A DNA stretch of 64,000 nucleotides from Voacanga thouarsii (Eukaryota; Streptophyta; Magnoliopsida; Gentianales; Apocynaceae): NCBI GenBank assembly GCA_026120185.1, contig JANUWF010002061.1, positions 3,162,001-3,226,000 of the forward strand, given 5' to 3'. The notes under the pieces are model-generated. The model ran no database searches, had not been told where the DNA came from, and saw only the letters and a program-made list of their open reading frames with translations. Shown in pieces: positions 9,303 through 63,788 of the stretch. The position numbers and the translations under genes are program-made. Within the stretch, counting starts at the first letter, position 1; the number at the start of each line of letters is the position of its first letter.

Positions 9303-9388
9303 TCTCTACCGGTACAAAAGCCAGAAAACTAAGCACGAGTTTCTGCCGTTATCAAAGCCATAAGACAGGTACGCATTTATTGATCTCT

Positions 9389-10243: not shown

Positions 10244-10539
10244 GCATTTAGTTGAATTGTATCAAGCTTCATTGAAAAATAAAAATGTGGAAGCAAATTT
10301 TTCTCAACATCCAATAAATAATGTCGAGAATGACGATAGTGATCCCGAAGATCTTAATATCAATATTACCCATATGGATGTATCGAATTTTTTGAACACC
10401 CGGACGGTAGGATAGACCATTTAATTGGTGATGGCGAGTGTCCAAAAGAACTAAAGCCTCACCTCGATATTTTTGTATTTTCATTTTCATTCTATTCTAA
10501 TAATATTTACGTTTACATATATATATTTGTGTTCGGATA

Positions 10540-13500
10540 GGTCGTTATTAATGATGATGTATGCATTATTGATAGTGGAACTACACACACCATACTAAAA
10601 AATGAGAAATATTTTTCCGATCTCAAAATGGGAGAAATAAATATTTATACGATAAACGGTAGTGCAAATGTAATTGAGGGCTCCGGAAGAGCTAGTATAT
10701 TGTTGCCTAAAGGAACAACAATTATTATTGATAAGGCACTATTTTCCTCAAAATCCGGAAGAAATTTATTGAGTTTTAAAGATATCCGCAGAAATGGGTA
10801 TCATGTTGAAACAAATGAGGAAAATGGGATTGAGCATCTTTTTATTACTCAAATGCATTTGGGTAAGAAATCGGTATTAGAAAAGCTGCCGTCTTTTTCT
10901 ATTGGTCTATATTTTTTAAAAATACGTACAATTGAAATTCATCATCTAGTAAACCGAAGTTTACTGATCCTATTACTTTTAGCATTTGGCATGACCGGTT
11001 GGGTCATCCAGGATCTACCATGATGAGAAGAATCATTGAGAATACACATGGTCATCCTTTAAAAAATAAAAGGATATTAACATCGAAAAATTCGCATGTA
11101 CTTGCATGTTCCCTAGGAAAATTAATTGTTAAACCATCACCAGTAAAAGTAGGAGCTGAAAGTCCTACATTTCTCGAACGGATTCACGGAGATATTTGTG
11201 GACCTATTGATCCACCATGTGGACCGTTCAAATATTTTATGGTCTTAATTGATGCATCATCCCGATGGTCACATGTATGTTTATTATCTACTCGCAACCT
11301 AGCGTTTGTGAGATTACTTGCTCAAATAATTAAATTACGAGCACAATTTCCGGACCATCACATTAAAAATATCCGTTTGGATAATGTCGGTGAATTTTCA
11401 TCACATGCTTTTGATGCATATTGCATGTCAATTGGGATTAATGTTGAACATCCTGTAACTCATGTTCACACACGTAATGGTCTTGCTTGAATCTTTGATT
11501 AAACGATTACAATTAATTGCTAGACCATTATTAATGAAAACAAATCTCCCAACATCTCGCTTGGGGACATGTTATTCTACATGCTGCAACACTTGTACGT
11601 ATAAGACCGACTAGTTATCATAAATTCTCTCCTTTGCAATTGGCTTTTGGGTCGGAACCAAATATTGCTCATTTAAGATTTTTGGGTGTCTTGTATATAT
11701 TCCAATTGCACCAAACCAACGTACAAAGATGGGTCCTCAAAGAAGAAAGGGGATATACGTTGGATATGATTCTCCCTCTATTATCGGGTATGTTGAACCC
11801 CGACGAGAGATGTATTCACGAGCAAGATTTGTCGATTGTCATTTTGATGAATCATTATTCCCTAAATTAGGGGAGAACCAAAATAGCATAAAAAGGATCT
11901 TGCTTGGACAACATCATTAAATTATCTTGATCCGCGCACAAGCGCATGTGAACTGGAAGTTCAAAAGATAATTCATTTGCAAAGCATTGCAAATCAAATG
12001 CCAGACAGCTTTTGTTGACTCGGAAGAGTTACAAAATCGCATATTCCGACTATAAATGCTCCTATTCGAATTGAAGTTCCAGTGAGAACAAAATATTATA
12101 CCTATAGTCGCTGAGTCAAAAACACGCCGAAGCGTGGCCGACCTCTTGGTTCTAAAGATAAAAATCCTCGAAAGAAAAGAGGATTAAATGATCCAGAAGA
12201 TCATATTGAAGAAGAGAATGATAAAGACCAAGAGAGAACTGATGACAAAGAACCGAAGTTGATGAAAGTAACACCGAAATTTCTATCAATTATACCACTT
12301 CAGGTAGAAGTTGGAATCGGATAGAAAGCTGTTATTGATAATATATTTGCATACAATATATCTCTTGATGTTACACAGGATAATGATGATCCCGAACCAA
12401 TATCGATTGATGAATGTCGGCATAGAAAAGATTGGTCGCAATGGAAAGATGCGATTCAATCGGAGTTAAATGCATCGATAAAACGTGAAGTCTTCGGACC
12501 TGCAGTCCGAACACCGGAAGGTGTAAAACCCGTTGGCTACAAATGGATATTTGTGCGAAAGCACAATGAAAAGAGTGAAATCGTTCGATATAAAGCGCGA
12601 TTAGTAGCCCAAGGTTTTTCACAAAGACCAGGTATTGATTATGATGAAACTTATTCTCCTGTTGTTGATGCTATTACACTCCGATATCTTATCGGTTTAG
12701 CGATACATGAAAAGATAGATATGCGCCTATTAGATGTTGTCACTCGCTTACTTGTATGGAAATTTAGAAAATGATGTTTACATGAAAATCCTCGAAGGAT
12801 TTCATATGCTCAAGCATATAAACATTATCCTCGTGAAAATTACTCCATCAAGTTGCAGAAATCATTATATGGCTCGAAGCAATCTGAGCGCATGTGGTTC
12901 ACACGTCTTAGTTAATATTTATTGAAAGCGGGATTTAAAAATGACCAGGTATGTCCATGTATTTTTATTAAGAAATCTGGTTCTAAATTTGTGATATTAG
13001 CTATATATGTTGATGATATTAATCTTATTGGAACTTCTGAAGAGCTCCAAGAAACAATTGATTATTTAAAAAGAGAATTCGAAATCAAGGATTTTGGTAA
13101 AACCAAATTTTGCCTTGGTTTACAAATTGAACATTTGGAGAGTGGAACATTTATTCATCAATCAACATATACAGTAAAAGTGCTAAAAAGATTTTACATG
13201 GACAAAGCACATCCATTGAGTATTCCAATGATCGTTCGATCATTAAATGTGGATAAAGATCCTTTCCGACCTCAAGAAAATGATGAAGAACTCCTTGGTC
13301 CTGAAGTACCATATCTCAGTACAATTGGTGCACTGATGTATCTTGCTAATAATACAAGACCTGATATTGATTTTGCTGTCAATTTATTAGCAAGATTTAG
13401 TTCTTCACCAACACGACGACATTGAAATGGAATTAAACAAGTCATTCGATATCTCCAAGGTACAATTGATCTCGGATTATTTTATTCAAATAAAACCAGC

Positions 13501-14028
13501 CCAACATTGATTGGTTATGCAGATGCTGGTTATTTATCTGATGCACATAAAGCACGTTCTCAAACGGGCTATCTATTTACATGTGAAAATACTGCTATAT
13601 CATGGCGTTCTACGAAACAATCTATAGCAGCTACTTCTTCAAATCATGCTGAAATTATAGTCATTCATGAAGCAAGTCGAGAATGTGTATGGCTAAGATC
13701 CATGATTCATTATATCCGAGAAAGTTGTGGATTATCATCAATCAAAAGTATTCCAACTCCTCTTTATGAAGACAATGCAGCTTGCATAGCTCAATTACGA
13801 GGAGGATATATTAAAGGAGATCGGACAAAATATATTTCACCAAAATTCTTCTTTACTCATGAACTCCAGAAGAAAAGTGAAATTGATGTGCTACAAATTC
13901 GGTCATGTGACAACCTCGCAGATATTTTCACGAAGACTTTACCGACTGCAATATTTGAGAAGTTGAGATATAAAATCAGTATGCGTCGATTTAAAGATTT
14001 AAAAGAATCATCTTATCAGGGGGAGTAA
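10540..14028 (+). pseudogene. Copia A pol: protease, integrase, reverse transcriptase, RNase H
   Basis: Protease begins near 10560 with the aspartic motif DSGTTHT. The pre-integrase and integrase core follow at about 10990-11500 (HGDICGPI, LDNVGEFSS). Reverse transcriptase lies at about 12480-13425, with KWIFVRK near its start and catalytic YVDD at 13006-13017. RNase H is at 13507-14028 (GYADAGYLSD, ADIFTKTLP). The reading frame is broken near 10990, 11490, 11870, 12774 and 12915, and by a Trp-to-stop change near 13425. The domain order is copia. No intact polyprotein remains. Confidence 0.9.
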
Positions 14029-14140
14029 TAAACAGACATATAGAATAGTGTACTCTTTTTCCTTCACTAGATTTTTTTTCCCACTGGGTTTTTATCTTGT
14101 AAGGTTTTAACGAGACATATTCTTTATGTATGGATGAACA

Positions 14141-14152
14141 TCCAAAGGGGAC
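14141..14152 (+). promoter_or_regulatory. Copia A polypurine tract
   Basis: TCCAAAGGGGAC immediately before the 3' LTR, the expected plus-strand priming site. Confidence 0.7.
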
Positions 14153-14493
14153 TGTTATGAATTATTGGAATCTCCATTAATTAGTGGAGGCTCCACTAAT
14201 TATGGATTTATGTGAATTATTAGAAGATTTTTATGGATGTCCACCATTTAGTGGAGACACCATTAATTGAAATTAGTTGAAGATGATGTATGCCATGATG
14301 TATTTCACTAATTAGAGCTCTATAAATAGAGCTATTCTCTAAGCTTGTAATACACCATCGTTTTGTGAAAGAAAGAATTGTGAGAGAAAGAAAGAGAGAA
14401 GTTTGAAGAGAAATTTTTGTGCAAAGAATAGTTAGAATTTTCTTAGTGTGTAGTGTGTAGATTTTATTCTAACACTACCCTAATTTTATAACA
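14153..14493 (+). repeat. Copia A 3' LTR
   Basis: 341 bp, same ends as the 5' LTR, followed by target duplication ATAAA. Confidence 0.95.
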
Positions 14494-15120: not shown

Positions 15121-17542
15121 TAGTAAAAGGAGCCATTGTCCCCTTATTTCTGCACTCTTTTACTTTTGCTTCTGATGCATAGCTACAGCCGACACGTATA
15201 CCCATATATTCAATGTTTCCATCGGCTGAAGTTTTACCACAGAAACTTTGATTGCTAACTAGGTTCCCATTTTTCGGCTAACTTGATGAAGTCAGAGGTG
15301 GGGAAACATTCAGCTGCTTGCTGGTCTTCTGATTTTGAATGTTAGAAGTTGTTGTTTTCTTTTACTGAATAGAATATTATGGAAAGACAGTATTTTTATA
15401 AGAAGTTCAGATATTCTACCGGGAAGATACGGACTCAATTATTTTTATTGTACTATAGTAATGTTTTAAGCTTTAGTTGACGAGGGTCTACTGCGCTTTT
15501 TTGCTGCTGTTTGTTAGAATTTATTATGGGTGGATTATTGTCTAAATTTTAAGTTTGTTCTGTGATCATTTCCTCATCAAAAGAAAAAAATCACACTGAC
15601 TTAGGCTGAATGATATTTTTATTGTTGTTATGTATGTCATAGCCTAAAGTTGCATTTTTCTTTTAAGCTAAGCTGATTTACTTTATTTTCATGCTTAGAG
15701 GTGGCAAGAGATGCACTACATTCAGACGGGTTTGGTGTAATAGGAGGTTACCACCTGTAAATGATGCATATGAGGAAAAGGTATATGGTATGCCTGTAGG
15801 CAACACATTGGACTGGCTTGGTATTTAGAGCCAGGATAATCAACCACACTCATTCAGTTCCTCTCAAGAATGGTAAAGAGATGCACTTAAGAAACCAGAT
15901 CACTAGGTTATCAATAGGCACTGTATGGAATGAAAGAGCAAAATATTTCTTATTTGAGTAAAGTAATATTGTTTCTGCCTTTTACTGATCTCAAACAGAA
16001 TAAGAATAACTGATTACTTTTTAATTTGAAAAAGTTAGCAGTTATCTGCCCCTTCAGAAGCTAGATAGGTCTACTTGATATTAGTTTAACATTATAACTA
16101 GTGTCTCCCTCCCCAAAAAGGAAGAAAAAATTTGGGTAATTTCCATTTTTAAAATTCCATTTGTTTATGTCATACACAATTTTTCAGTGCTGCATCATGT
16201 TTTCCCTCCTAATTTTTGATGCCCAGTCATTTGACCGGTCATTTCTTTCCCGAGGAGAAGTAGGTGTCAGGGCCAAATTGATGTCCATTCTTTTTCTGTG
16301 TCGTGTTGCAGTGGGTTATCTGGCTTGCAGAAGTTCTGAATTTGTGATGGTTGACATCTGGGAGCTAACAAATACAGTAAGTTATGTACTAGAAGTTTAA
16401 AGTTATATGTAATGTGTGTGTATGTGTATTTATTAGTGTGCAGTTTGGTTCTAACTTCATGGCCTTCATACTATCATTTAGCATCTCTTCAATATATTTT
16501 ATGGGCGAGTCAGAGTTTTCATGCACATTGACAGTTTGCCCAGAACTAACCTTTTTTAATCAGAGATAACTTTGGTAGTCTGGATTCACTTAGTTTCTTG
16601 CCAGGATATTTTCCTTCATGACAAATTTAATTTCATCAATCTTGATACTTTTATGGTGAGGATTATCTGAATCCTTGCATAACATAGAAACTCAGCATAC
16701 TTCTATCTAATCAACATTGTCCAATGCATGAGCAATTGAATTTTACACAGGATAGAACTGGTGTCCATTATACTGCTTAAGATTGCAAGTTTTTGATTTG
16801 ATGTTATTCCGTTTGTTGGTTAAGGTCATGCTTGTATTTGATTCTGACCTGCTGTGCCGTTCTGAAGTCCTGGAGCTTGGATTGTTGATCAGGTAATGTG
16901 TTGTTGTACATCTTACGTATTGCAAAAGTAATTCAAAACGTCAGAACTAATGCAGTACAGTGTATTTTGCAGTTCCCTAATAATATCCAATATCCATCCG
17001 TATAAATGGGTTGTTGAGCTCAACCTGTCAAAGCCTTGTCCAATTGGCATGTGAATCCTGTGAGGTAGTTTTGCCACCATGGTGAGTGTTATGATGATAA
17101 AATCATTTTTCCTTGAAGTTGTACGTTGCTGCTATTTGCTAATAACTAAGAGAAACATAAAAGTGACAGGACAATCTTAAAGTCTCGTAAGTTCCATTGA
17201 TAATGGTCTAGAATTAGTTTTTCAGAAGAAGGTAAATGCATTTTCCTGTAAATTCACAGGATTAACACCGGTCAAAATTTTGTTCTCAGGAATGCAATCT
17301 TACAGTCACTTTATTTTTAGTTCAGGAAAACATATGGAGACTTTGTTTGAGCTGTACATTCGCAGAGGTGGTCAGGATGTTGAGAAGATTATTTGTACCT
17401 GAAATTCTGAATGAACACGTGGAGAGGAAATACGCACTTCCAAGTTCGTATCACTTTTTCTAAAAGTGTTCCAATGTCTATTAAACGTATGGATTGTGCA
17501 TATTTCTTCTACTTCTATCAGTCTACAAAAGTTGTCATGACT

Positions 17543-29700: not shown

Positions 29701-32700
29701 ATGGTGGTAACCATGATATGGATTGTTATACTATTGTTTGAATCATTGCTAATCCTTACATAATAAACTTATGATTATGATGAGATGATGATTTATTGAA
29801 AACTACTTTGGATATGATGAGCAATGCTCCTTTGAATAATTGTATTGATGAAAAGTCTTGCAAACATGATTTTGTGGTTTTAATAAACCTGCATGCACGA
29901 AATGTTTATATAGAATATTTGCACACACAGGACTTATTGAGATGCCAATCTCACACTATTTTACATCATGTTTTCAGGGAAGTGCTTTTATTGAGAAGGT
30001 TGAAGACATAAGAGATGACCTTTAGTTTATTTATTTCTGCTTTGTATTTCTTTCGAGAGATGATTGTTAGTTTTAAATTCTCAGCCTTGTATAAATTTTA
30101 ACTTTGGTTGTAATAAGATTATTGAGAATTTTATCTAGTCATTTTCGTCTTTTTGTACCTCGTTATAAAGACCCCTAGTCCTTTGGAGTGGGCGACATCC
30201 CGCTTATTTGGGTACATAGGTAGTAGGGTGTTACACCATTCTTTTTCATTTAATCTATAGTGATGTCTGGGGTCCATCTACTATTGCTAATATCTCTAGG
30301 GGACGATTGTTTGTTTCCTTTATTGATGACTGTACTCGAGTTTGCTAGGTCTTACGTCTTAAACAAAAATCTGATGTCAATATTATTTTTTCAAATTTCT
30401 GCTCCATGATTAACCAGTTTGGAGTGACCATCAAGAGCGTTAGGTCTGACAATGCACGAGACTATTTCAATCAAAATCTAAGTCTATATTTTCAAAAGTA
30501 AGGGATAATCCATGAGTCATCTTGTGTGAATACCCCGTAGCAAAATGGAGTTGTAGAGAGGAAAAATAGAGATCTACTTGAAAAAACTTGAGCATTGTTA
30601 TTTGAACATCATGTACCTAAACCCTTTTGGGGGAAGGCTGTTCTTACAGCAACACATCTCATAAAACCGATTGCCATCTAGAGTCCTAGGATTTTAGAGT
30701 CTAGTGGATGTATTGTCCACCTTCTATCCTAACTTTCACACCACAGCTAATCTTGTTCCTAGAGTGTTTGGATGTACATCCTTTGTATATGTTCACAGTC
30801 ACAACTAAGGGAAATTGAATCCTAGAGCTATAAAATGTGTTTTTGTGGGATATTCGTCAACCCAAAAAGGATATAAGTGCTATCATCCACCCTCTTGAAA
30901 AATCTTTGTTTCTATGGATGTTACTTTCAATGAACGTGAATCTTACTTTCTAAACTCTTTATCTTCAGGGGGAGAAGTTTGTGAGAGAAGATGAGAGTTT
31001 AGATTTTGACTTGTTATTGGATCTTTCAACTTCAAATCAGCATCCTACTTCCTCATCCAATAGTGATCCTATCATAGTTCACTTTGAGCTATCTAAGTTT
31101 GTTACAGTTTCCTCTGAACTTGTATTTACTCAATCTCACACTGAGTTTGTTCCCAAGGATATTAGATATGGCAAAAGCAAGATGTATGCAAGGAAGAAGA
31201 CAACTGCCACCAACCCTACGCAAGTCCAAGAGTCTGATCAAGTAATGACTTTTGAACCCATATTACAAATTGAAACAGAACCAGAGGTAGAGAGTGAGAT
31301 CCATAGAGATAGTAGTGGCGTAGACTTGCTCATTGCATTGAGAAAAAGTGCAAGAGAGTGCACTAAAAGACCTTTATACCCCCTTGCACACTTTCTGTCT
31401 TTTTAGCGTTTTTCTCCGTCACACAGAACCTTCCTCAGTAACCTAGAAACCATTACTATTCCTTCCAATCTATCCGAAGTTTTATCTAATGAAAAGTGGA
31501 AACAAGCTACGAATGTAGAAATGGAGACACTGGAAAGAACAAAACATGGGAGTTTGTGGAGTTACCAGCAGAGAAGAAACCAGTAGGGTGTAAATGGGTG
31601 TACACAGTGAAATATAGAGCTAATGGTTTAGTGGAAAGATACAAGACAAGGTTGGTTGTCAAGGGTTATACTCAGACGTATGGAGTAGACTATCTAGAGA
31701 CTTTTGCTCCAGTTGCAAAATTGAATGTTGTTAGAGTCTTATTATCTTTGGCAGCCAACTTTGGATGGGATTTACAACAGTTTGATGTCAAACATGCTTT
31801 CTTGCATGGAGATCTCTAGGAGGAGATATATATGGAGATACCACCAGGTAATGGAAAAGGAGTTGCTGGCCATACAGTCTGTAGGTTAAGGAAGGCATTG
31901 TATGAGTTTAAACAATCTCCTCGAGCATGGTTCGGTAGGTTTGCCAAAGTTATGGTGATGTTAGGATACAAGCAAAGTTAAAGAGATCATACTTTGTTCA
32001 TCAAGCATTCGTCTTCAGGGAGAGTCACGATTCTCTTAGTTTATGTGGATGACATAATTGTTACAGGAAGTGATGATGATGAGAGACGTTCTTTGAGTGA
32101 GTGCTTGGCAAAAGAATTCGAGATTAAGACACTTGGGAAGCTAAAGTATTTTATTGAAATTGAAGTGACACATTCAGAGAAGAGTATTTTTCTCTCTCAA
32201 CAGAAGTATAACAACAACAACAAAGCCTTAATCCCAAGTAACTTGGGGTCGGCTACATGAACCAACGTCAGGCAACGTGTGGTCATCCACATGAATCCTC
32301 TCTCGTCACTTTCTTCTATCGAACGTCATACTGTCATCCAAATCTAACAAAGACATATCTCTCTTAATTATCTCTATCCATGTCGTTTTAGGCCTACCTC
32401 TACCTTTCCCTCTGTCTAACCTATCCTGCCTCACTCTCTCCATCGCTCTAACAGGAGCATCCCTCGGTCTTCTCTGAACGTGTCCAAACCAACGCAGACG
32501 ACTTTCTCTCATCTTTTCCTCAATAGATGCCACACCCACCTTTTTCCTAATGATCTCATTTCTAACTCTATCATTCCTAGTATATCCACACATCCACCGT
32601 AACATACGCATCTCAGCTACTTTCATTTTTTGAATATAACACCTTTTAGCTGCCCAACATTCCGTACCATATAACAAAGCAGGTCGTACGACTGCCTTGT

Positions 32701-35700
32701 AAAACTTTCCCTTTAAATTCAACGGTGCATTACGATCACAAAGAATACCAGTCGCACTCCTCCATTTCAACCAACCCGCCTTAACTCGATGTGCAACGTC
32801 GCTATCGAGCTCTCCGTCTTTCTGAATAATAGATCCTAGATAGCGAAAACAATCAGCTAACGGTATATCTCTACCTTCCAAAGTTACACTCTGGGCTATG
32901 TTTCTGCTACCACTAAACTTGCATCCCATATACTCTGTTTTACTCCTACTAATTCTGAAACCCTTGGATTCCAATGTCTGCCGCCATAACTCCAATTTAG
33001 CATTTACACCGGCTCTAGTCTCATCAATTAATACAATATCATCCGCAAACAACATACACCATGGCACAGCCTCCTGTATAGTGCAGGTCAACTCATCCAT
33101 AACGGCTGCAAAGAGGAAAGGGCTAAGCGCTGATCCTTGATGCACCCCGATATTAATAGGGAATTCTGCAGTCACTCCGGCGCCAGTCCTTACACTTGTA
33201 CATGCTCCCTCATACATATCTTTAATGAGAGTAATATACTTTATTGATACACCTTTCTTGGCCAGCACCCACCAAACTACTTCTCTAGGAACCCTGTCAT
33301 AGGCTTTTTCCAGGTCAATAAATACCATATGTAAATCTTTCTTTCTTTCCCTATGATATTCAATCATCTGCCGTAATAAATGAATTGCCTCCGTAGTGGA
33401 ACGCCCAGGCATAAAACCAAACTGATTATCTGAAATTTGTATAATGCCCCGTAACCTCTGTTCAATCACTCTCTCCCAAAGCTTCATAGTATGACTCATG
33501 AGTTTAATCCCACGGTAATTGGCACAATCCTGGACATCTCCTTTATTCTTGTACAGAGGAATCAGAGTACTCTTCCTCCACTCTGTAGGCATCCTATTAA
33601 CTTTATATATCTTGTTGAACAGACTTGTCAGCCACGTAATACCTATATCTCCTAAACACTTCCAAACCTCGATCGGTATACCATCCGGTCCTACGAGCTT
33701 TTTTGGACTCATCCTTTTAAGCGCATCACGGATTTCATGCTTCTGAATACGACGAATCCATGCACGGTTAACCTCTTCGTTCGAAAGCGCCAGGCTACCT
33801 ACACTCGGAACTTGGACTTGACTCCCGTTGAATAACTTATCAAAATATGATCTCCATCTCTCCTTTATTTCTTCATCCTTAACTAAAACATTGTGGTTTT
33901 CGTCCTTTACACATTTCACTACACCTATATCCCTCGTCTTCTTCTCCTTGTAATGCGCCAGTCTATATATATTCTTCTCTCCGTCTTTGGTATCTAACTT
34001 TTCATATAAATCCTTGTAAACTATGGCTCTTGCGTTTCGACGACTTCTTTAGCTTTTCTTCTCGCGACCTTGTATTTCTCAAAATTTTCATCACTCCTAC
34101 ACCTTCCTAAGTTTCTATAGCACTCTCTTTTACTCCTTACGGCTTCTTTCACTTCGTTGTTCCACCACGACACATCCTTGTTAAGAGGTATTTTTCCTTT
34201 AGATTCCCCAAGCACTTCCTTAGCTACTCGTCCTAATACATTGAGCCATCTTTCTCCACATAGTATCCGGATCCGAATCCATATCGGAAGACCAATTATC
34301 CGCCTCAACTACCTTATTGACAAAGGCTATTCTTTCATCCCCCCGAAGCTTCCACCACCTAATCCTAGGGTCAACTCGAAAATTCTGCTTGCTTACTCTT
34401 TTTCCTAAAATTAAAATCGAGGACCAACGACTCGTGTTGCGTAACTACACTCTCACCGGAATAACTTTACAATCCGTACACCCACTACGAAACCTACGCC
34501 TCATAATAAAGAAGTCTATCCGATCGGCATTTAACCCGCTTCTAAAGGTCACTAAGTGAGAATCTCTCTTCTTAAACCAAGTATTTGCTATGGTCAAATC
34601 ATAGGCCAAGGCAAAATCAAGAATAGCAGTTCTCGCTTCGTTTTTAGCTCCGAAACCACGACCTCCATGAACACTCTCAAACCCGCTCTTATCGGTACCT
34701 ACATGTCCGTTTAGATCACCACCAATGAAAAGCTTTTCTACACACGGTACACTCGGACAATCTCATCTAAATCATCCCAGAACTGTTGCCTAACCGAATC
34801 ATCGAGTCCTACTTGCGGCGCATACGCACTAATAACAGTAGTAATCTCGCCGCCAATCATGATCTTGATGCTCAAAATCCTATCACTCTTCCTCTGTACT
34901 TCAATCACATCATCAATAAACTTACGATCAATAATAATTCCGACTCCATTTCTATTTCTAACTCTACCTGAATACCAAAGCTTATAACCCCATGGAGTGA
35001 CTACTCTCGCCTTCTCACCTACCCACTTGGTTTCCTGAAGAAACAAAATGCTAATCTTTCTCCTCCGCATTACCTCAACTAGCTCTGTCAATCTACCGGT
35101 CAAAGATCCTATATTCCTTGTAACTAGATGAATCCTATTCCTGTAGACTGTCTTTTTTACCCTACACCCTTGCATATTTGACACCGCATCTGGGGACCGA
35201 CACGGCGCGTTGCTTCCGGGCAACGACCTAGCAACCCTCGCATATTTGTCACTACACCCAGGTCTAGGAAGTGCAACGCGTTGCTGAGTAGGGAACGCCC
35301 CCACGAAGTCAATCGATTGGTTCATGTCATAGATGTGACTATGTTTTATGCTGGCCGTCACAAGCCTACCGCAACTCTCCTCCTTTATCCGGGCTTGAGA
35401 CCGGCAATGAACACCGCAGACAAAACCCGTGGAGCTCACCGTAGAAGTATGTAACTGATCTACTCAAGGAGACAGGAAAAACAACATGCAAACCAGGTGA
35501 GTACTCCAATAGATCCAAATATAAAGCTTGGACTAGCAGAGGAAGATGCTATGGTGGACAAATGGGTCTATCAAAGTTTGGTAGGAAAGCTCATTTATTT
35601 GTCCCACACACAACCGGATATAGCTTATGTTGTGAGTGTGATTAGTCAATTTATGCACAGTCCAAAAGAGGTTCATCTTCAAGCAGCACACAGGGTGTTG

Positions 35701-38700
35701 CAGTATTTTAAAGGTACACTAGGAAGAGAACTTCTTTTTAGGAGAAGTGGGGGCTTAATGCTTGAAGCCTATACAGATGCTGATTATGTTGGGTCATTGA
35801 TTGATAGAAGATCGACCACTGGATATTATACATTCCTTGGTGGGAATTTTGTGACATGGATGAGTAAAAAACAAAATGTAGTAGCATGGTCTAGTGCAGA
35901 GGCTGAGTTTCGAGTGATGGCTCAAGGAGTATGTGAGTTTCTTTGGTTAAAGATCATTCTACAAGGCATAAGGATCAAGTTGAAGGGCCCAGTGAAACTT
36001 TACTCCGATAATAAATTTGCAATTAGCATAGCTCACAATCCTGTGTAGCATGATCGGACAAAGCATATTGAAATTGACAGATTTTTTATCAAGGAGAAAT
36101 TAGAAAGTGGAATTGATTTGCACACCTTATGTGTCTACAAATAATTAGCTTGCTGATGTGTTAACCAAATATTAAGTGGTCCAATGTTTGAAAATATTGT
36201 ATCCAAGTTGGGAATGGAGTGTAATACCCCATATTAGACCACCTTTAGTAAGTGGGGGGAAAAGTCGTGCATGTGATATTGTTTTATACCACATTTGATT
36301 ATTTGAATTATTTCCATGAAAATATCAATTTGTTGTTGCATGAATTATTTTGTTCTTGAAGTGGTTGTGGTATTTGAGGTAGTTGAGTTTTATTTTATTG
36401 AAGAGAATTTATTAGAAAAGGGGATGGAGTAAGTGAGTAAGGGTTAAGGGAATTTATTAGGAGAATATTTGTCAGGAATCAATGTGGTTTAGCGGATAAA
36501 GCTTGGTATTTAATTCATGGTGAGCTTGGGTTCGAATCCTAGTTATCTCAAATCCTTTCCTTCCTTTTATTTTCCTTCTACCCTAATTTTCCCTAGCCTT
36601 GGCCAAAATCTTTAAGGTTTTAGAGACCAATTTCCTAAAAATTGGGGGTGTGCTTTATCTTGAAAATTATTTTATAAAATGAGTAAATTAAATTTTTGTT
36701 CCTAATATCCTATCATAATGTTTTAGAGAATTTTAAAGATTACTAATCTAGATTTTTAAAAGCTATATCCAAGTAATATATTAGGAGGTAAAATATAGGA
36801 GATTATATAGGTATTGTTTTCAAGGAGATAAATCCCCATATTTTAATCTTTTTCAAATAATATATATATTTTTTAAGAAAATAGAAGGCAAAGAGCTGGA
36901 TTTAAATGAGATGTTTGTCTCTTGGATTAAGCCAAGAGTTTCGAAAGTTTGAAGGGGGAAAAGGAAGGGGAAAATTCGGTAGCTTCAAGGATTAGGAAAC
37001 CAGAATTTTCCTTACCAAATAACTGTTTAATAACTATTTAAAAATTACTCAAATTAGTATAGGACATTAATTAAGCTACTCCCTAAATAAATGACCTAAT
37101 TCCTTTCTAGGGTTTTCTGGAAAATTTCCTCATAGCAGCCGCCACACATAGGTAAAGATAACTTAACAAAAAGCACTCCAAAACTTAGTTAGGGTTAACT
37201 AAGAAAACCCTAACCAATTAGGACTTGATTTCAGCCAAAAGAATACCATAATTTCAGCTCCATTGCCCTCAGAATTTCGGCCACCTTAAGCTCCCTTCTG
37301 CATGAAACTTCCAGCCAAAAACCTGCTCCAAAAACCCCTCTAGCTGTCAAGCAAAAACAGCTACACAAAACCCTAATCTTTCCTCCTCCCAATTTCGTCC
37401 AAGAGGAAGGCAGAAATCAACTTCTTTCATCTCTTTTTGCTCCCTTATTGTGGCAACAATAACAACTAGAAATCAGTCACAAAAGCCAGCCCTAAACCCC
37501 CTTAAACCTTGCTAGAATTCGGCTACAGCAATAGGGACAAAAGCTGTCACCTTTTCCTTCTTGTGATCAAGAGTCCAAAACAAGAAGAACCTCTCCCAAA
37601 CCCTAAAACACCTCAACCTAACCTATTCCCTTCATCAAACCAGCCACAATCAAACCCTAAACACCCTCTACTGCTCAAGAATTCCAGCTGCCACCCTCTC
37701 CAAGGATTTCGTCCTTAGCAACCTCCGAGCATCTCCAAACTTGAAATCTAAACCTAAGGTGAGTAACCCTTCAAACCCTTTCAACTTTCATTCAAATAAT
37801 CTTCTTCTTTTCTCCTCAATCTCAGTCATCAAGGGGCTGATCCTTGTCTCCTTTTATTGAAGATTTTTGAACAAGAAGGCCAAGAGCATTACAATCAACC
37901 TTTCTTCCTCAAGTGAACCCAAGCAACCACCAAAGGCGCCACCTTTGCACTTAGTGTGTGTGTCGTCAAAGGTATTCTTGGTCTCAATCCCTTTTTGCTT
38001 AAATAAGGTTGCTTTATGGTGATGTTGTTATGCATGGAGGCTAGATGAAAGTATGAATAGACTATATTGTTGAGTTTGAGGGTTCAATGGAATGAGCTAG
38101 GCATGTATGTATTTGATCATGATTGATTATTGCTGTGAAGGTCTAGATCTGCAGCATGATGATTAAAGATGAGATCTTTGAATGAAAATAGGGTTATTAT
38201 ATGAGGTTTGTGGTAGACGAACATTAGGGGTCCTTGTATTGATGATGAGATTTGTTTATATGCATGCCATGATGAGATGCATGATCTTGGGAAGCTATAG
38301 TGATGAGCTAATAAAACTAGTCTATTTAGATGCCATGGATGAATTAGATGATATGATTATAGGGATTCATGATGCATAAAAAGATAAGTGGATGCATATT
38401 TAGGTTCTAATCATAGAATCATTGGTTCTAGATAAGGAAGGAAGTGAAAAAGACATCAAGCATCACTTTGATTGATTATTGAGAATATCCAGGTAAGTCC
38501 TTGCATAACTGTTTTGATATAAGTTATATGTTTGCAAGCAATTTTTACAATGTTATTTGGAATTGATGTCAACATGATGTTTAGACACAAGGATTGAGAC
38601 TTGACCAAAAATGATGAGCTATACTGGATTGTTGTGATACTTGGATTGGTAACGTGGAGGTTTGCTTTCAAAACGAATTTACTAAATTTTAATTATTCAA

Positions 38701-42640: not shown

Positions 42641-44340
42641 TGGAACGTCCATTCCGGGGAGGTGCTGGGGTGTGGCCGGCCGGCCGGAGCGGTGGCTTTT
42701 CGAACTCTTGTCGTCAACGAGCATTTTTCTTTTCCCTTCTGATAGCTCTCTCTGTTTTATCCCACTTTGTCAAAAGAGAACGAAAAGATTTTTTTTTTAT
42801 TTTTTATTTTGGTTGGGGAAGCAAACTACTAAATTTTCTCTTATGCTGCAAATACACAACCAACGGAAAAGTATGGCGGAACTTGATGTTTCGTCATGCT
42901 TGTCCATCTTCGTCGGAGTGAGCAGGAAGCTTGATGGTTTACGGAGGTTATGCAATGAGGTTAGAAGGGACTTCTAAATTGATATTGTTTTGCTGAGATC
43001 GTTCAAAGATACTGAAAGGAGCCATTTCCCCCTTAGTTCTGCACTATCTATTGTGTGCTTCTGATATTACGTGCATATGCACACGCATATCTCAAATGTG
43101 TTGCATTTCCTGAAGTTTTGCAGAGAAAACACTGGTTTTCTTAAGAGAATCACTGCAAACTTCGAATTTCTTTAGCAGGTTCCCCTTTTCCTGCCTAACT
43201 TCATCTAGTTAGGGGTGGAAATGTCTCCTTCAAGGTTGAAAGTTAAAGTTGGCGTAATTTTCTTTTACTGATCAGAAAACGATGGAAAGATGGAATTTTT
43301 ATAAGGAAAAAGTTCAAAAATTCTACCAGGTAGACAGGGATTCAATTATCTTGGTGTGCTACAGTAATTTTGAAAGCTTTAGTTGACTAGTGTCTACTGT
43401 GCTTTTCTGCTGTTGTTTGTTAAGGTTTGTTATAGATGCCTCTGTAACAACTTTCATGTCAAAAGGAGAGAGGGAAAAAAGAATGGTGGTTGGTTTTAAA
43501 CTAAGAGATTTTCTGGCTTTTTTTTTTTTCCGTAAATAATATAATAATATTTATAGATTTGGAATATGATTACAACATAAGCAAAGAATGTTTGCCAGAG
43601 AATATTTCTAAAATTTTGTACTTTTTTCTCTTTACAAAAGTAACATTTATTATATGCTGTATTTTGTTTTATTATTGTAGAGAATTCTTATTTAACTAGA
43701 TAGATGATTCTAAGGTCACAATTGATGATACCTTAAACTGCAATTTGGCAAGAAAAAATATTTATACTTGTAGTATCTGTTTGTGAGGAACCCTTGCTGA
43801 CACCTATATCCTTCATTTTTTATGCTCTGTTGCCACTCGCTTTATATATATCGAAGAAAGGGGTGCCCAAGAAACACGTTATACAATAAAGATTTGCGAT
43901 TTTGAGTCATGACTTTCCATCACGGCATATCCTCATTTAATCTTGCTTCATACTGAGATTGCCAACAAGTTGTTTCTTATATATCAATATGCATCCTTTG
44001 ACATAAGATATTGATTATTTGCAGTGACCTTCCAAATTAATATTATGTCCAGATGCTTAAAGTGATAAATTTATTTTATTTCAAACTTAAAGTTGGCAAG
44101 AGATGCACTACATTCAGAAGGAATTGAAGTAATAGGAATTTACATGCCACCTGTAAATGACACACAAGAAAAGGTAGGCACCAGGATTAAACTGATTGGG
44201 TATGTCTGACTCAGGATAGTCGTCCACAGTGATTTAGTTCTTCTGAAGAATCAAGAGCTGCATTTTAAAAACCTGGATTGAGAGATTATCACTAGGCACT
44301 ATGAGGAATGAGAGCACAAAATAGCTCTCATTTTAGGAAA
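42640..44340 (+). pseudogene. NMNAT: NMNAT-B fragment
   Basis: The 5' non-coding block (42660-42990) matches NMNAT-A and NMNAT-C. One exon, about 44091-44176, matches 62785-62870 in frame (ARDALHSEG, then a diverged IGIYMPPVND) and keeps a GT donor. Intron sequence after it (to about 44340) resembles 15800-15960 and 62880-63010. The copy then ends abruptly at the junction with unit C. The catalytic nucleotidyltransferase exon and all downstream exons are missing, so it is a dead fragment. Confidence 0.75.
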
Positions 44341-53480: not shown

Positions 53481-53818
53481 TGAATCAGCTAAGTTTTCAT
53501 TAATTAGCATATGAGAGGGGAGTTTGGGAAGAGAGGGTAGGAGAAGACAGGGCAAAAATTCGTCAAGATCGCTTGTGACTGAGCTTCTTGCATCAAATGG
53601 AGGAAGCAGGTCTTTCTAGGCCCCATCTTCCCCCTTTTATTCTGTAAGATTATATATATATTTTTTAATACGAGTATAATTTTTAAATTTATAAACAATT
53701 TACAAACTTAAATATTAATACTATAATATGTTTAAATAAAATTGTCAAGATTTTTTATAAATAAAAAAAATTATATTAAAAAGTTTAAAGTAATATATTG
53801 TTTAAAAAAATTTCCATC

Positions 53819-54185
53819 TGTTATAAAATTAAGGTAGTGTTAGAATAAAATCTACACACTACACACTAAGAAAATTCTAACTATTCTTTGTACAAGAATT
53901 TCTCTTCAAACTTCTCTCTTTCTTTCTCTCACAATTCTTTCTCTAATCTTTCTTTCACTAATCTTTCTTTCACAAAATGATGGTGTATTACAAGCTTAGA
54001 GAATAGCTCTATTTATAGAGCTCTAATTAGTGGAATACATCATGGCATACATCATCTTCAACTAATCTCAATTAATGGTGTCTCCATTAAATGGTGGACA
54101 TCCATAAAAATCTTCTAATAATTCACATAAATCCATAATTAGTGGAGCCTCCACTAATTAATGGGGATTTCAATAATTCATAACA
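53819..54185 (-). repeat. Copia B 3' LTR
   Basis: 367 bp, TG...CA ends. Differs from the copia A LTR by an extra CACTAATCTTTCTTT-type duplication. Confidence 0.95.
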
Positions 54186-54196
54186 CTCCCCCTTGG
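54186..54196 (-). promoter_or_regulatory. Copia B polypurine tract
   Basis: Minus strand CCAAGGGGGAG directly before the 3' LTR. Confidence 0.75.
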
Positions 54197-54238
54197 ATGT
54201 CCATCCATACATAAAGAATATGCCTCGTTAAAACCTTA

Positions 54239-55852
54239 CTAGATAAAAACCCAGTGGGAAAAAAATCTAGTGAAGGAAAAAGCGTACACTATTCTATATG
54301 TCTGTTTATTACTCCACCGATGAGATGATTCCTTTAAATCTTTAAACCGACGCATACTGATTTTATATCTCAACTTCTCAAATGTTGCAGTCGGTAAAGT
54401 CTTCGTGAAAATATCTGCGAGGTTGTCACATGACCGAATTTGTAGCACATCAATTTCACATTTCTTCTGGAGTTCATGAGTAAAGAAGAATTTTGGTGGA
54501 ATATGTTTTATCCGATCTCCTTTAATATATCCTCCTCGTAATTGAGTTATGCAAGCTACATTGTCTTCATAAAGAGGAGTTGGAATATCTTTGATTGATG
54601 ATAATCCACAACTTTCTCGGATATAATGAATCGTGGATCTTAGCCATACACATTCTCGACTTGCTTCATGAATGGCTATAATTTCAGCATGATTTGAAGA
54701 AGTAGCTGCTATAGATTGTTTCGTAGAACGCCATGATATAGCAGTATTTCCACATGTAAATAGATAGCCCGTTTGAGAACGTGCTTTATGTGAATCAGAT
54801 AAATAACCAGCATGTGCATAACCTATCAATGTTGGACTGATTTTATTTAAATAAAATAATCCGAGATCAATTGTACCTTGGAGATATCGAAGGACTTGTT
54901 TAATTCCATTCCAATGTCGTCGTGTTGGTGAAGAACTAAATCTTGCTAATAAATTGACAGCAAAAGCAATATTATGTCTTGTATTATTAGCAAGATACAT
55001 CAATGCACCAATTGTACTGAGATATGGTACTTCAGGACCAAGGAGTTCTTCATCATTTTCTTGAGGTCGGAAAGGATCTTTATCCACATTTAATGATCGG
55101 ACGATCATTGGAATACTCATTGGATGTGCTTTGTCCATGTAAAATCTTTTTAGCACTTTTGCTGTATATGTTGATTGGTGAATAAATGTTCCATTCTCCA
55201 AATGTTCAATTTGTAAACCAAGGCAAAATTTAGTTTTACCAAAATCCTTGATTTCGAATTCTCTTTTTAAATAATCAATTGTTTATTGGAGCTCTTCAGG
55301 AGTTCCAATAAGATTAATATCATCAACATATATAGCTAATATCACAAATTTAGAACCAGATTTCTTAATAAAAACACATGGACATACCTGGTCATTTTTA
55401 AATCTCGCTTTCAATAAATATTCACTAAGACGTGTGAACCACATGCGCCCATATTGCTTCAGGCCATATAATGATTTCTGCAACTTGATGGAGTAATTTT
55501 CACGAGGATAATGTTTATATGCTTCGGGCATATGAAATCCTTCGAGGATTTTCATGTAAACATCATTTTCTAAATTTCCATACAAGTAAGCGATGACAAC
55601 ATCTAATAGGCGCATATCTATCTTTTCATGTCTTGCCAAATCGATAAGATATCGGAGTGTAATAGCATCAACAACAGGAGAATAAGTTTCATCATAGTCA
55701 ATACCTGGTCTTTGTGAAAAACATTGGGCTACTAATCGCGCTTTATGTCGAACGATTTCACTCTTTTCATTGCGCTTTCGCACAAATATCCATTTGTAGC
55801 CAACAGGTTTTACACCTTCTGGTGTTCGGACTGCAGGGTCCGAAGACTTCAC
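54239..55852 (-). pseudogene. Copia B reverse transcriptase and RNase H, one internal stop
   Basis: A single frame on the minus strand runs from 55852 to 54239, apart from one stop at about 55283 where copia A has a Glu codon. Motifs: VGYKWIFVRKRNEK, DVVIAYLYGNLENDVYMKIL, catalytic AIYVDDINLIG, then RNase H (GYAHAGYLSDSH, ADIFTKTLP). It is much less damaged than copia A pol. A +1 shift near 55845 separates it from the preceding linker (55850-56000). Confidence 0.88.
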
Positions 55853-56471
55853 GTTTTATCAGTGCATTTAACTCCGATTGAATCGCATCTTTCCATTGCA
55901 GCCAATCTTTTCTATACCGACATTCATCAACTGATATTGGTTCAGGATCATCACTATCCTGTATAACATCAAGAGATATTATATGCAAACATATGATCAA
56001 TAATTGTTTCTATCCGGTTCCAACTTCTACCGAAAGTAGTATAATTGATAGAAATTTCATTGTTACTTTCATCAACTTCTGGTTCTTTGTCATCAGTTCT
56101 CTCTTGGTCTTTCAATATGATCTTCTGGATCATTTAATCATCTTTTCTTTCGAGGATTTTTATCTTTAGAACCAAGAAGTCGGCCATGCTTCTGGCATAC
56201 TTTTGGCTCAACAGCTATATGTCAAAATTTTTGTTCTGCTGGAACTTTAATTAGAATAAGAGCATTTATAGCTGGCATATACGATTTTATTACTCTTCTG
56301 GAGTCAACAAAAGCGTCTGGCATTTGATTTGCAATACTTTGCAAATGAATTATCTTTTGAATGTCAAGTTCACACGCGCTTGTATGCGGATCAAGATAAT
56401 TTAATGATGTTGTTCAATCAAGATTTTCTTGTACTGTTTCTATTCTCCCCCTAATTTAGGGAATAATGATT
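55853..56471 (-). pseudogene. Copia B integrase-RT linker remnant
   Basis: Reverse-strand match to copia A 11850-12480 (e.g. DECRYRKDWLQWKDAIQSE, minus strand near 55925-55870), with frameshifts. Homology to copia A ends at about 56471, the left edge of the captured segment. Confidence 0.75.
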
Positions 56472-58115
56472 TCACAAGAGAATAAGAAAAGAAATATAAG
56501 AAAATGATGACAAGCAGGAAATGCCAAGAAAAATATCTCCTTTTTTTTTCACTCTTCCCGATACCGACTTTTCCTCTTCCTCTCTTATCTTTTCTTCTCC
56601 TTTGACCCTCTACCTACCATCTACCTCTTCTTCTTCCTCATACAGATATATATATATATATATATATGTATCGATATATATCTCAGTCATCAGTCATTAG
56701 TAAATATCAAAAACAAAAATCACAAAGCAGATATGGAGACTCGTAATTCATTTGAGACATGGTCAAATTTTGACTCGGTTTCTACTGCAGATTTTGATGT
56801 ATTTTCCTTTTCAAACCAACCGCTTCTGCCTAATTCGAACGCAGAAGATTTTGATATGTTTTCTTTTCCAAACCAACCGCTTCCTCCTAATTTCAGGTGA
56901 GATACCTTTGAGGGCTTCCATTTATTTTTAGTATGCTTAATAATGAAATTAAACTCTCTTTTGGTTTGTTTTTTATGTAAATCAGTGGAAGTTTTGAACA
57001 TACTGCTTTGGACTAAGTTGATCTGCCTCTACAAGAGACTACTTTTGATACTATTCCTCTTGATGCTATTCCTTTGAATGAGGATATACTTGTGCATGAT
57101 CCTTTCTACCCTCTAATGAATTTTAAACAAAGCCAGAATATGTTTCTAGGTTATTATACATTTAAACATGGATTTTGAATGGTATTACCTTTACTGATAT
57201 TATTTTCTTTTTCTAGGAGAAATAATGAGTGGTCTTGGCAACGAAGTCGGAGTAAGTACTCATGAAATGCATAATATCGAAATTCAAGATATTATTGCAG
57301 ACAAAATTCCTGGGGAGAAGAAGATGATTAAGAGGCAGAGAGAGAAGAAGGGCAATAACTCCCAAACACTATCAAGAGAAACAATTTCGCAGTACTTTTA
57401 CCTACCAATCAAGAGCGCAGCCAAAGAACTGAATATTGGCATAACCCGTCTCAAGAAAAGATGTAGGGAGTTAGGAATTCGTCGATGGCCTCACAGGAAA
57501 TTGGTGAGCTTGGAGACCATAATCAAGAATGTTCAGATTCTCTCTCATACATACTTATAATTTGCAAATATGAAACTATGAAAGATTTATAAGTAAATAA
57601 CCGATAATATTACTTCGATTTACAGGAGATGCAAAATAAAGAAGAAGGAGGACATATGACTGAGAAGAAGTTGAAAGAAGCCATTGCGATACTGGAATGT
57701 GAAAAATAGTTGGTGGAAGAAAGTCCTAATACGCAGTTAGATGATCAAACACAGAAATTGAGACAAGCATGCTTCAAGGCCAAATATAATAAAAAATTTA
57801 ATTATAATAAACTTAAGGAGATCATAAAATCTCAAGACTCATTTTGCAGTAATTTTACGGCTAATTCTGCTACTAGTCTCGATGCTGGCTCAAAGGGGAA
57901 AGAAAAGGAGGAGGATATCGAAAAAGAGGAGTTGAAGTCCATAATTACTAATTGTTTGTCTTCCTCTAATGTAAATATTGAAAAAGAACAATTACAAACC
58001 TTCATCTTACATTTGTCAGCTCAATTACAAAAGAGCAACTATAAGCATGTATCCTCAAGTTCATATGAACACTAGTGATATGAATAAAAGATGTGATGCT
58101 TATTATTAATAGAAA
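56472..58115 (+). other. Captured host segment inside copia B
   Basis: Both edges are defined by where alignment to copia A stops: the left one at about 56472 (after GGGAATAATGATT) and the right one at about 58115 (before the gag-like CTTTTTCCCTTAT). The segment starts about 260 bp upstream of the RKD start codon, with CT-rich and (TA)n sequence (56560-56670) that could be the gene's own leader or promoter. It ends about 40 bp after the RKD stop. No terminal repeats or target duplication were seen at its edges, which argues against an ordinary nested transposon. Confidence 0.8.
56733..58075 (+). pseudogene. RKD: RKD-type RWP-RK transcription factor gene, captured and damaged
   Basis: Exons 56733-56896, 56986-57149, 57217-57536 and 57626-58075 join in consistent phase (about 365 codons). 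An acidic N-terminal region (METRNSFETW; repeated SNQPLLPN/PNQPLPPN) leads to a complete RWP-RK domain in exon 3 (ISQYFYLPIKSAAKELNIG, then RWPHRKL), the DNA-binding helix and signature of RKD factors, which act in egg-cell identity and embryogenesis. Damage: in-frame TAA at 57014-57016, TAG at 57707-57709, and AT in place of the GT donor after exon 3 (57537). Introns 1 and 2 keep GT-AG. From ATG 57225 a 111-codon open frame holding the whole domain runs to 57560, so a domain-only peptide is possible. The gene is antisense to copia B, and its introns are retained. Confidence 0.85.
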
Positions 58116-58700
58116 TATCTTTTTCCCTTATTATCTTTTCTGTTCCACTTCAGGTGGCCAGTATTTCTCTGTGATAAAGGAAATATCGAGTGTGTCCATG
58201 ACCATAACCACGACCATCGCCACAACTACGACTATAACGATGAGCTTCTGCTGGAGCCAACAACATTCACTTCAGAGTCTTTGTTGAGCCAATTCATTTG
58301 GCTTCATGATTTCTCAATAATAACTCATGTTAAAGTTCGTCAATTTTGGATACCCTTTTTCTCGATATTATTATCGTAGGACATGAAAAGTGGAGAATGT
58401 CTTCTCCAATATAACTTCATCAATAACTTTTTCTCCGTAAAATTTTTAACTAAGATGTAATTTTATACATCACTGGAGTTCATGGTTTTACAATCTTGCA
58501 ACTTCGGTGCAATCATTCATACCGTACGATGGGTAGTACGACCATCTTCGAGTGGTCAAATCTTTCTTTTTATCCACATGACATATGGATCCCTTTTTTT
58601 TAGCATTTAGATGCATTTACGTATGACATATAAATTTTTTTTCGTAAATATCAAGGGTTACAAATTCGAATTTAGCGAGATCAATAAATACGTACCTATC
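58116..58700 (-). pseudogene. Copia B gag remnant
   Basis: Reverse-strand match to copia A gag in two pieces: the Arg/Gly/His-rich region (58140-58260) and a capsid part (58290-58560), plus the gag start near 58680 (KFEFVTLDI-like). A large deletion removed much of the first 100 codons. Frameshifts throughout. Confidence 0.75.
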
Positions 58701-58725
58701 TTCCGGCTTTAATAACGATGAGAGA

Positions 58726-58740
58726 CTCGTGCTAATAACG
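58726..58740 (-). promoter_or_regulatory. Copia B primer binding site
   Basis: Minus strand CGTTATTAGCACGAG next to the 5' LTR, as in copia A with one change. Confidence 0.55.
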
Positions 58741-59107
58741 TGTTATAAAATTAGGGTAGTGTTAGAATAAAATCTACACACTACACACTAAGAAAATTCT
58801 AACTATTCTTTGCACAAGAATTTCTCTTCAAACTTCTCTCTTTCTTTCTCTCACAATTCTTTCTCTAATCTTTCTTTCACTAATCTTTCTTTCACAAAAT
58901 GATGGTGTATTACAAGTTTAGAGAATAACTCTATTTATAGAGCTCTAATTAGTGGAATACATCATGGCATACATCATCTTTAACTAATCTCAATTAATGG
59001 TGTCTCAATTAAATGGTGGACATCCATAAAAATCTTCTAATAATTCACATAAATCCATAATTAGTGGAGCCTCCACTAATTAATGGAGATTCCAATAATT
59101 CATAACA
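58741..59107 (-). repeat. Copia B 5' LTR
   Basis: 367 bp, pairs with 53819-54185. The minus strand would drive the element and hence antisense RNA across the RKD copy. Confidence 0.95.
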
Positions 59108-59125
59108 CCATCAAAATTTTTGTTT

Positions 59126-59363
59126 TGTTATGAATATATTGTGAATGGAATTAGTAGAAGCTCTACTAATTATGAATTTTTATGGATGTTCACCGAGACA
59201 CTACTAATTAAGATTTGTGAAAGATAATGTATTCTACTAATTAAAAAATTGTGAGAGAAAAGAAAGAGAGAAGTTTGAAGAAATTTTTATGTAAAGAATA
59301 GTTAAAATTTTTTTAGTGTATAGTGTATAAATTTTATTTTAACATTATTTAAATTTTATAACA
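59126..59363 (+). repeat. Old solo LTR of the copia A/B family
   Basis: Degenerate 238 bp LTR on the + strand (TGTTATGAATATATTG ... TTTTATAACA) with internal deletions. Flanked by a perfect 5 bp duplication TGTTT (59121-59125, 59364-59368). Lies 13 bp past the copia B target duplication. Confidence 0.85.
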
Positions 59364-61720: not shown

Positions 61721-63788
61721 ATGGCATTGCCATTGGACAAGTTATCCCAAAGGTTAAATTATTTTGATGAACCACAAAGCCTTGGAACCAAGTAAGTTCT
61801 GCCTCTCTCTTTTTGAGTAGCCTTTCAATTATGTATGTTTTGTGTAGAGATATACTTATTTGACAGGTCAATGTTTGTCATTTTGCAAACTCATGATTTT
61901 GGAATTGAATGAATATGTTAAAACATCTTTATTGGCATTATTACTTTTCTTCTGTGGGAATGGCTCTAAAATCAGAAGAAATGTCGCCATTTTTGAAAGA
62001 TGTGAATGATTAAGGTGGTGTGAACTTTCAAAGTAAAAAGACCTCTGATTCTGATGCCATATTAATTTAAAATAAAGTGGAAACAACAGCTTTGTCAATT
62101 TTTTTATTTACATTAGAGAATTATATGACTGGTTTAATGCCACAAAGTCCACTTGCATGGGCTGCCATCCTGGATGGATGGGAAGAACTAGATATGCTCG
62201 TAGTGTTTCTTTGCTGGCAATATGACAGCTCCTAGCTCATTTCTATAGTTTATCATTGTGCACTTACATTACAGTTCTCAGAAGGAAAAAGTAATGATTT
62301 GATTTCTATTGCACAAAAAGTACTATATTAGTGTTGTTGCGATGGGATGGGTTTTGCCCTTTTCCTGTTTATAGTTACTATTATTTTGAAACAATTTCCT
62401 CTCTTTAAACTCCACTTCGTTTCTCTTCTAGGAAAGAGTATGTGGTTTTAGTATCAACTGGAAGCTTTAATCCTCCTACTTACATGCACTTACGATGTTT
62501 CGGTCAGTAGTTCTTTACTTTTGTAATTCTTTGAGATATGTTTCATTTTCTTTACTTGTCAAGGAAGAAGAAAAACTATGGTACCATTGCAATAATAAAT
62601 CAGACTATGAACTTGGTATGGTTATTCTGTGTCCTCAAGCTAATCTGCTAACTGAGTTGACATATATTTATAGTAATATTAATAGATTTATGCTGAATGA
62701 ATATGTGCTAATTGTTTCATTTATTATCACTTAAAATTACATTTTCCTATAAATTATACTGATTTACTTTGTTTTCCTGCTTAGAGTTGGCAAGAGATGC
62801 ACTACATTCAGAAGGGTTTTGTGTAATTGGAGGTTACATATCACCAGTAAATGATGCATACAAGAAAAAGGTATGTAGTATGCCTCTGTCCACCAGATTG
62901 GACTGAGTTGGTATGTCAAACCTCAGATTGTCATCCACACTGAGTCAGAAATAGTAAAGGCCCACATTTTAAGAACTGGATCAATAGGTTATATTGTGAA
63001 TGATAAAAGAACAAAATCACTCTTATTTTGGGGTAGTTGAAAGGGTTCATGGTTATTACTGATCTCGCACAGAAAATTAATGATTTCTTGTTTCTCTTGT
63101 AGGGGGAGGTGCGCCCCAGGGGGGGTTGTGGGGGGTGTGGGAAGTAGTTGGGGAGTCAGCAGTGGTATGCCCTTCAGTAGCATCATAGGGTCTGCTTAAT
63201 AGTCCCCTGCGCCTGCAGGGCCCTCACAAATCCTCAACACTAAGTAGAAAAGGAAAAAAATTTAATGCATTGTCATTTGCATCCTTCCCTTTGACATTTC
63301 ATGCGACTAGTTACTTGTTACCCAAGGAGGAGTAGGTATCAAGGTCAAACGTATGTCCCTTCTTGTTTTATAATCTTTTTACATTGTCAAACCAAGGTGT
63401 TCTAGCTGAAGAGTATTTTTTCTACCCTGATCAAAATAGGGTCTTATATCAGCTAAGCATCGCGTCGCAATGTGTAATCTGGCTTGCAAAAGTTCCGAAT
63501 TTGTGATGGTGGATTCCTGGGAGGTCTCACTCTCTCTCTCTCACATGACATAGAAGTTATTTACATGCTTAGTGAGGTTTGGATATTCCGCATGTATCAC
63601 TGTTACTGTTACAATATTTTTCTCTTCGCTAGTGGGCTACACTTGGGTTCTACTTCATCACCCCGTAAAATCTTTTACGATCTCTCCAATATGAATTTTA
63701 CAGGCAAGTCAAAGCTCTTACCAACGGTCGTTAACAGTTTTATCCAGAATTAGAACTTTGTTATCTGAGAGTGGCCTGGTATCCAGCG
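61721..63788 (+). CDS. NMNAT: Nicotinamide/nicotinate mononucleotide adenylyltransferase, 5' five coding exons (NMNAT-C)
   Basis: Coding exons 61721-61791, 62432-62502, 62785-62870, 63440-63523 and 63704-63788 join in frame with GT-AG introns; the gene runs past the window end. Start ATG 61721 (MALPLDKLSQRL) follows an acceptor. Exon 2 has the nucleotidyltransferase motif GSFNPPTYMHLR, which binds ATP phosphates. Exon 3 gives GGYISPVNDAYKKK, exon 4 LACKSSEFVMVDSWE and exon 5 SSYQRSLTVLSRIRTLL, all as in plant NMNAT. The enzyme joins ATP with nicotinate or nicotinamide mononucleotide in NAD synthesis, in cytosol or nucleus. No stops or frameshifts are seen. The C-terminal nucleotide-binding part is outside the window. 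It is the only one of three copies that looks functional. Confidence 0.9.
63102..63142 (+). repeat. G-rich run in NMNAT-C intron 3
   Basis: Four G-runs (GGGGG, GGGGGGG, GGGGGG and GGG) within 41 bases, compatible with a G-quadruplex on the + (coding) strand. Confidence 0.5.

Follow-up and report, generated by a model that had tools for sequence, protein, structure and literature searches.

Within the 64-kb stretch of Voacanga thouarsii DNA that we analyzed (hereafter, the window), which contains no undetermined bases (N), we found a Ty1/copia retrotransposon, copia B, that carries an RKD (RWP-RK) gene of the host between its LTRs (Table 1). The element is bounded by two LTRs of 367 bp each with TG..CA ends and is flanked on both sides by the same 5-bp target-site duplication; at the base composition of the window, a 5-base match has a chance of 0.0015. 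The LTRs are identical at 359 of 367 positions, with 8 mismatches and no indel, and in comparison to both LTRs of a second element of the same family, copia A, 26 columns and 3 sites are common to both LTRs of copia B. Their divergence (K = 0.022, or 0.011 per lineage) corresponds to an age of 0.85-1.6 Myr at substitution rates that we take to be 1.3e-8 and 7e-9. Directly beyond the right end of copia B, at 59243-59363, we also observed an inverted piece of the same LTR (85% identical).

Coding remnants are retained on both sides of the internal region of copia B. A copia-type reverse transcriptase (RVT_2, Pfam) is present as two open pieces, of which 55286-55855 matches at 4.8e-45, and 54242-55282 matches at 7.4e-07 with 29.4 bits, below the Pfam curated cut-off of 31.6 bits. 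A protein search with the latter piece recovered 1,696 relatives, which are general copia relatives, with a highest identity of 80% among the best 120. The gag side is degenerate and was recognized by alignment to copia A; Pfam gave no match for its two gag pieces. Elsewhere in the window, 32309-35463 (minus strand) contains a LINE-like reverse transcriptase together with an endonuclease-like piece whose match is just below the cut-off. Both appear to sit inside a copia reverse transcriptase region (31493-31816 and 35455-36045, plus strand), the second part of which has no Pfam match.

Comparison to copia A identifies what copia B has lost. By BLAST, copia B matches copia A through gag up to A position 10156 and again, from the integrase end to the 3' LTR, from A position 11850. 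No match to the intervening 10157-11849 was found in copia B, which has 56472-58115 in its place. The stretch present only in copia A has Pfam matches to a zinc knuckle (with a lengthened query), Pol_BBD, GAG-pre-integrase and rve, and it includes what we take, from its position and DSG motif, to be the protease. The integrase lies upstream of the reverse transcriptase in copia A, and copia B retains only the integrase end. The B-to-A matches stop at 56471 and 58121, which places the junction on the integrase side at 56471/56472 and that on the gag side at about 58116-58122. When we searched the window for other occurrences of 56472-58115, we found, copia edges aside, only AT repeats and one 51-bp AT-rich stretch (4794-4841, 80%).

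Table 1. Features of copia B, its RKD segment and the related element copia A (positions in the window).
Feature	Position	Strand	Basis or remark
Copia A, same family as B	8949-14493	plus	target duplication ATAAA; protease and integrase pieces kept
Copia A stretch absent from B (zinc knuckle, protease, most of integrase)	10157-11849	plus	BLAST, Pfam
Target-site duplication CCATC, left	53814-53818		identical 5 bases at right
Copia B	53819-59107	minus	LTR pair and target duplication
3' LTR, copia B	53819-54185	minus	LTR comparison
Putative polypurine tract AAGGGGGAG	54186-54194	minus (read on minus)	adjoins 3' LTR; assigned by position
RT/RNase H remnant, copia B	54242-55855	minus	RVT_2 matches; one stop separates two open pieces
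Integrase end and linker, copia B	56177-56471	minus	~80% identity to copia A
Host segment with RKD gene	56472-58115	plus	BLAST against copia A; replaces zinc knuckle, protease, most of integrase
RKD exon 1	56733-56896	plus	gene model
RKD exon 2	56986-57149	plus	gene model; TAA stop at 57014 (codon 65)
RKD exon 3	57217-57536	plus	open RWP-RK domain; inferred end CAG, then AT, not GT
RKD exon 4	57626-58075	plus	gene model; TAG stop at 57707 (codon 244)
AATAAA, possible RKD polyadenylation signal	58083-58088	plus	begins 8 bases past stop
Degenerate leader and gag remnant, copia B	58116-58740	minus	alignment to copia A, 16 indels
5' LTR, copia B	58741-59107	minus	LTR comparison
Target-site duplication CCATC, right	59108-59112		identical 5 bases at left

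The RKD gene lies antisense to copia B and has four exons and three introns. Introns 1 and 2 begin with GT and end with AG, and intron 3 also ends in AG; the start codon is preceded by 261 bp of the segment, a TATA-rich stretch included, and ~40 bp follow the stop codon. The joined exons (with X at the stops) match the RWP-RK domain at E = 3.3e-22, far past chance, and the best protein matches are plant RKD proteins. A preliminary description of this locus had reported a copia element with both LTRs and a clean target duplication, with gag and RT/RNase H remnants, and with a four-exon, intron-containing antisense RKD gene between gag and the integrase-RT linker, all of which we recovered. It had also described the protease/integrase region as swapped; relative to copia A that region is absent, but the integrase end was kept and the zinc knuckle was lost as well.

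A protein search with the RKD copy (E ≤ 1e-3) recovered 464 relatives. Among the best 120 of these, the top-scoring relative (Fraxinus) had 45% identity over 90% of the query, matches restricted to roughly the domain reached at most 65% identity, the Catharanthus RKD was the 18th match by score (41% identity), and there was no close donor protein. In a tree of the copy and 36 of these 120 relatives, chosen mainly from asterids, the copy joined the Catharanthus RKD with support of 99/95, on long branches of 0.76 and 0.61. As the copy groups with Catharanthus and the NMNAT host gene of the window is also nearest to Catharanthus (81% identity, then 76% to Cinchona, in the best 120 of 452), the RKD segment probably derives from the host lineage. 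By the same evidence alone, the host would most likely be a Gentianales plant, with Apocynaceae nearest among the best matches. The copy extends ~32 residues beyond the ends of 7 aligned relatives (57977-58072) and, by eye, has a tandem-like repeat in exon 1; both features may belong to the donor. An NMNAT exon occurs in three copies in the window (15656-15751, 44048-44143 and 62742-62837). A second gene is likewise repeated (about 6.8-8.2, 40.6-42.0 and 48.1-49.4 kb), which we take to resemble GMI1/SMC-hinge proteins and for which we found no Pfam or NCBIfam match. These repeats suggest that a gene pair was duplicated locally.

The RKD copy is a pseudogene. Its reading frame is interrupted by two stops, which oppose Q and K in the 7 aligned relatives (the second was codon 233 in our first gene model), and the CAG at the putative end of exon 3 (57534-57536) is followed by AT. 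This exon end was placed from the alignment; an alternative GT at 57504, 33 bases earlier, would remain in frame. No frameshift is evident across the 1,098 joined coding bases, the last third of which aligns poorly. RKD proteins are tied to egg-cell identity and apomixis, and the wider RWP-RK family is reported to have a role in gametophyte development. The term master regulator, used in the preliminary description, suits the RKD family and not the broken copy in copia B. The element is now decaying and most likely has no coding role.

We compared these lesions with a simulation of stop codons over 1,107 bases, a model in which exon 3 is four codons longer. At 0.011 substitutions per site, the simulation gave a mean of 0.45 stops and a probability of 0.076 for at least two; the mean rose to 1.95 at 0.05, and the probability to 0.22 at 0.022. 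The two stops observed, without an evident frameshift, are compatible with 0.01-0.05 substitutions per site after capture, which would put the capture near, or somewhat before, the insertion dated by the LTRs at 0.011 per lineage. We rejected the idea that the RKD copy is an ancient, long-carried passenger; it has too few lesions, even though the gag beside it is old debris. Because the copy is fresher than gag, it has not been carried for long.

The gag side of copia B aligns to copia A with 84% identity over 609 bases and 16 indels, 13 of which are stretches absent from B, and the RT side has 9 indels over 1,985 aligned bases. Of the 136-residue gag frame of copia A, copia B retains only fragments that are spread over three frames and contain stops. 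Given these many indels in gag versus none between the LTRs of copia B, gag was probably broken before the last insertion, so that copia B, if mobile at all, would have moved with proteins supplied in trans. Identity to copia A is 80% over about 56472-56174 and 96% over 56173-54186 (one 150-column window within the latter falls to 89%), and a single change point at 56177 has a likelihood ratio of 89.6, in comparison to at most 16.3 in 300 shuffles. Such a mosaic with two divergence levels is the pattern that template switching would give, and one of the two elements, B or A, probably arose by recombination between two copia lineages; as the comparison takes in two elements, neither the indels nor the mosaic is assignable to the A or the B lineage. 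The dS of 0.041 and dN/dS of 0.79 between the RT pieces of A and B (520 codons) are uninformative for timing. Recombination between copia lineages has been reported for Onsen bursts (PMC5668417).

The best explanation of these data, which as a whole we consider slightly better than an even bet, is that copia B is one non-autonomous copia element in which a genomic RKD copy, in antisense, would have replaced the zinc knuckle, the protease and most of the integrase. We also lean toward capture of RKD before the last jump of copia B, rather than later filling, because the element bears a further mark of template switching and because the RKD lesions slightly exceed what is expected after insertion. 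These grounds, the mosaic and the P = 0.076 for at least two stops, are weak. The exchange could have occurred by template switching of reverse transcriptase onto an RKD RNA, or a single RNA could have started in a 5' LTR, crossed an RKD locus flanked by two truncated copia copies and ended in a 3' LTR. By either route, the introns would be antisense in the element RNA, which would hold only the complement of the RKD splice sites, and they would be kept because they could not be spliced; the retained introns, presented in the preliminary description as a puzzle of their own, were in this respect overstated as a difficulty. The proteins of intact copies would then have copied and inserted the chimera in trans.

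Template switching, read-through of RKD between truncated copies and filling by repair all fit the structure of copia B. In the last case, an ordinary but already defective copia would have inserted, and a later double-strand break within it would have been sealed by copying in the RKD locus, with the loss of ~1.69 kb, so that the chimera never moved. This sequence of events would yield an identical anatomy, and in its favor the RKD gene is far less decayed than the adjoining gag. The mosaic and the dead gag would likewise be seen had the element inserted before it gained RKD. The time available can also accommodate the two stops, which need little of it by the simulated probabilities given above, although two is rather many for the period since insertion. 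However, such repair requires the 1.69-kb loss and the gain of a near-complete gene as filler in a single event, and we regard it as a doubtful, if real, possibility.

That RKD reached a pol-deleted copia as cargo of a nested DNA transposon or of a Helitron appears improbable. An 8-bp direct repeat, AGAAATAT, is present near both segment ends (56490-56497 and 58111-58118), as this reading would have it, but direct repeats of at least 8 bp were reached by 50 of 1,000 random same-distance position pairs in the window, so the repeat is possibly due to chance. In addition, its left copy sits 18 bp within the segment, and a separate 1.69-kb deletion would be required. We rejected cargo of a DNA transposon because the ends of the segment lack terminal inverted repeats, the longest exact inverted match being 6 bp; Helitron ends were inspected by eye only. 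An assembly artifact joining a native RKD locus to copia pieces on each side is very improbable, as the two misjoins would have to give equal 5-bp duplications, equal LTR lengths and collinear orientation in a window that contains no N. The near-complete RKD gene with its introns could also be the native locus, flanked by copia pieces that inserted independently of each other, a case that the preliminary description had itself raised against its reading. The equal 5-bp duplications and the pairing of the LTRs through shared columns and sites argue against it, and the copia pieces share one orientation, follow the order of copia A and do not overlap; we consider it extremely unlikely.

As the preliminary description had said, capture of host genes by plant LTR elements is known, with cases in maize, rice, sorghum and tomato (PMC2774510, PMC3726574, PMC6762207), and a review of gene capture names template switching as one mechanism (PMC13317346). 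In tomato, the copia element Rider moved SUN with more than 20 kb as a hybrid retroelement (PMC6762207, PMC4034497). The parallel with copia B is the carriage of a host locus by a copia element; as described, however, the Rider event dates to the last 200-500 years and led to overexpression and a fruit phenotype, whereas the copia B segment is 1.6 kb, internal, antisense and broken. In maize, 425 intact LTR elements with gene fragments, representing at least 189 captures, are reported, 36 of them copia elements, in 15 families (PMC2774510). These also hold host gene DNA inside an LTR element, but they are described as gene fragments, in contrast to a near-complete gene with introns that replaces protease and integrase. 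Maize Bs1, an LTR element, likewise encloses host segments, which are reported to derive from three genes without containing a full ORF of any of them. Full-length LTR elements are reported to contain 672 captured host genes in rice and 1,343 in sorghum, many of the rice ones being considered pseudogenes by the authors (PMC3726574); the words intron, antisense and orientation are absent from the main text of that paper.

With regard to orientation, Grande, RIRE2 and Retand resemble copia B in having an antisense coding segment in an LTR element, but their antisense ORFs are described as family-wide and located between pol and the 3' LTR, whereas copia B has an internal antisense host gene in one known copy (PMC7264820). 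According to the same review, transduced genes are usually in sense relative to gag-pol. Our literature search on RWP-RK/RKD and retrotransposons, which covered titles and the openings of abstracts, found no report of an LTR element with an RKD gene, and we located no publication on Apocynaceae RWP-RK genes with a genome assembly. Thus, gene capture by LTR elements is known by the hundreds, and copia B is unusual in its orientation, position, cargo and near-completeness.

If other copies of copia B exist, they would constitute a mobile antisense RKD cassette; otherwise, copia B would be a further decayed case of gene capture. We consider it a long shot that there is a small mobile family in which LTR-driven antisense RKD transcripts give rise to small RNAs acting against the parental RKD in trans, or that the uninterrupted exon 3 frame (57198-57557) yields a short protein with only an RWP-RK domain that competes with full RKD. 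If true, the small-RNA reading would make a retrotransposon a trans-acting tuner of an egg-cell/embryo regulator. Copia B provides a clean, datable example of a near-complete antisense host gene with introns, with a relative in the same window that shows the replaced part, and it could help to distinguish template switching from transcription that runs through paired truncated elements.
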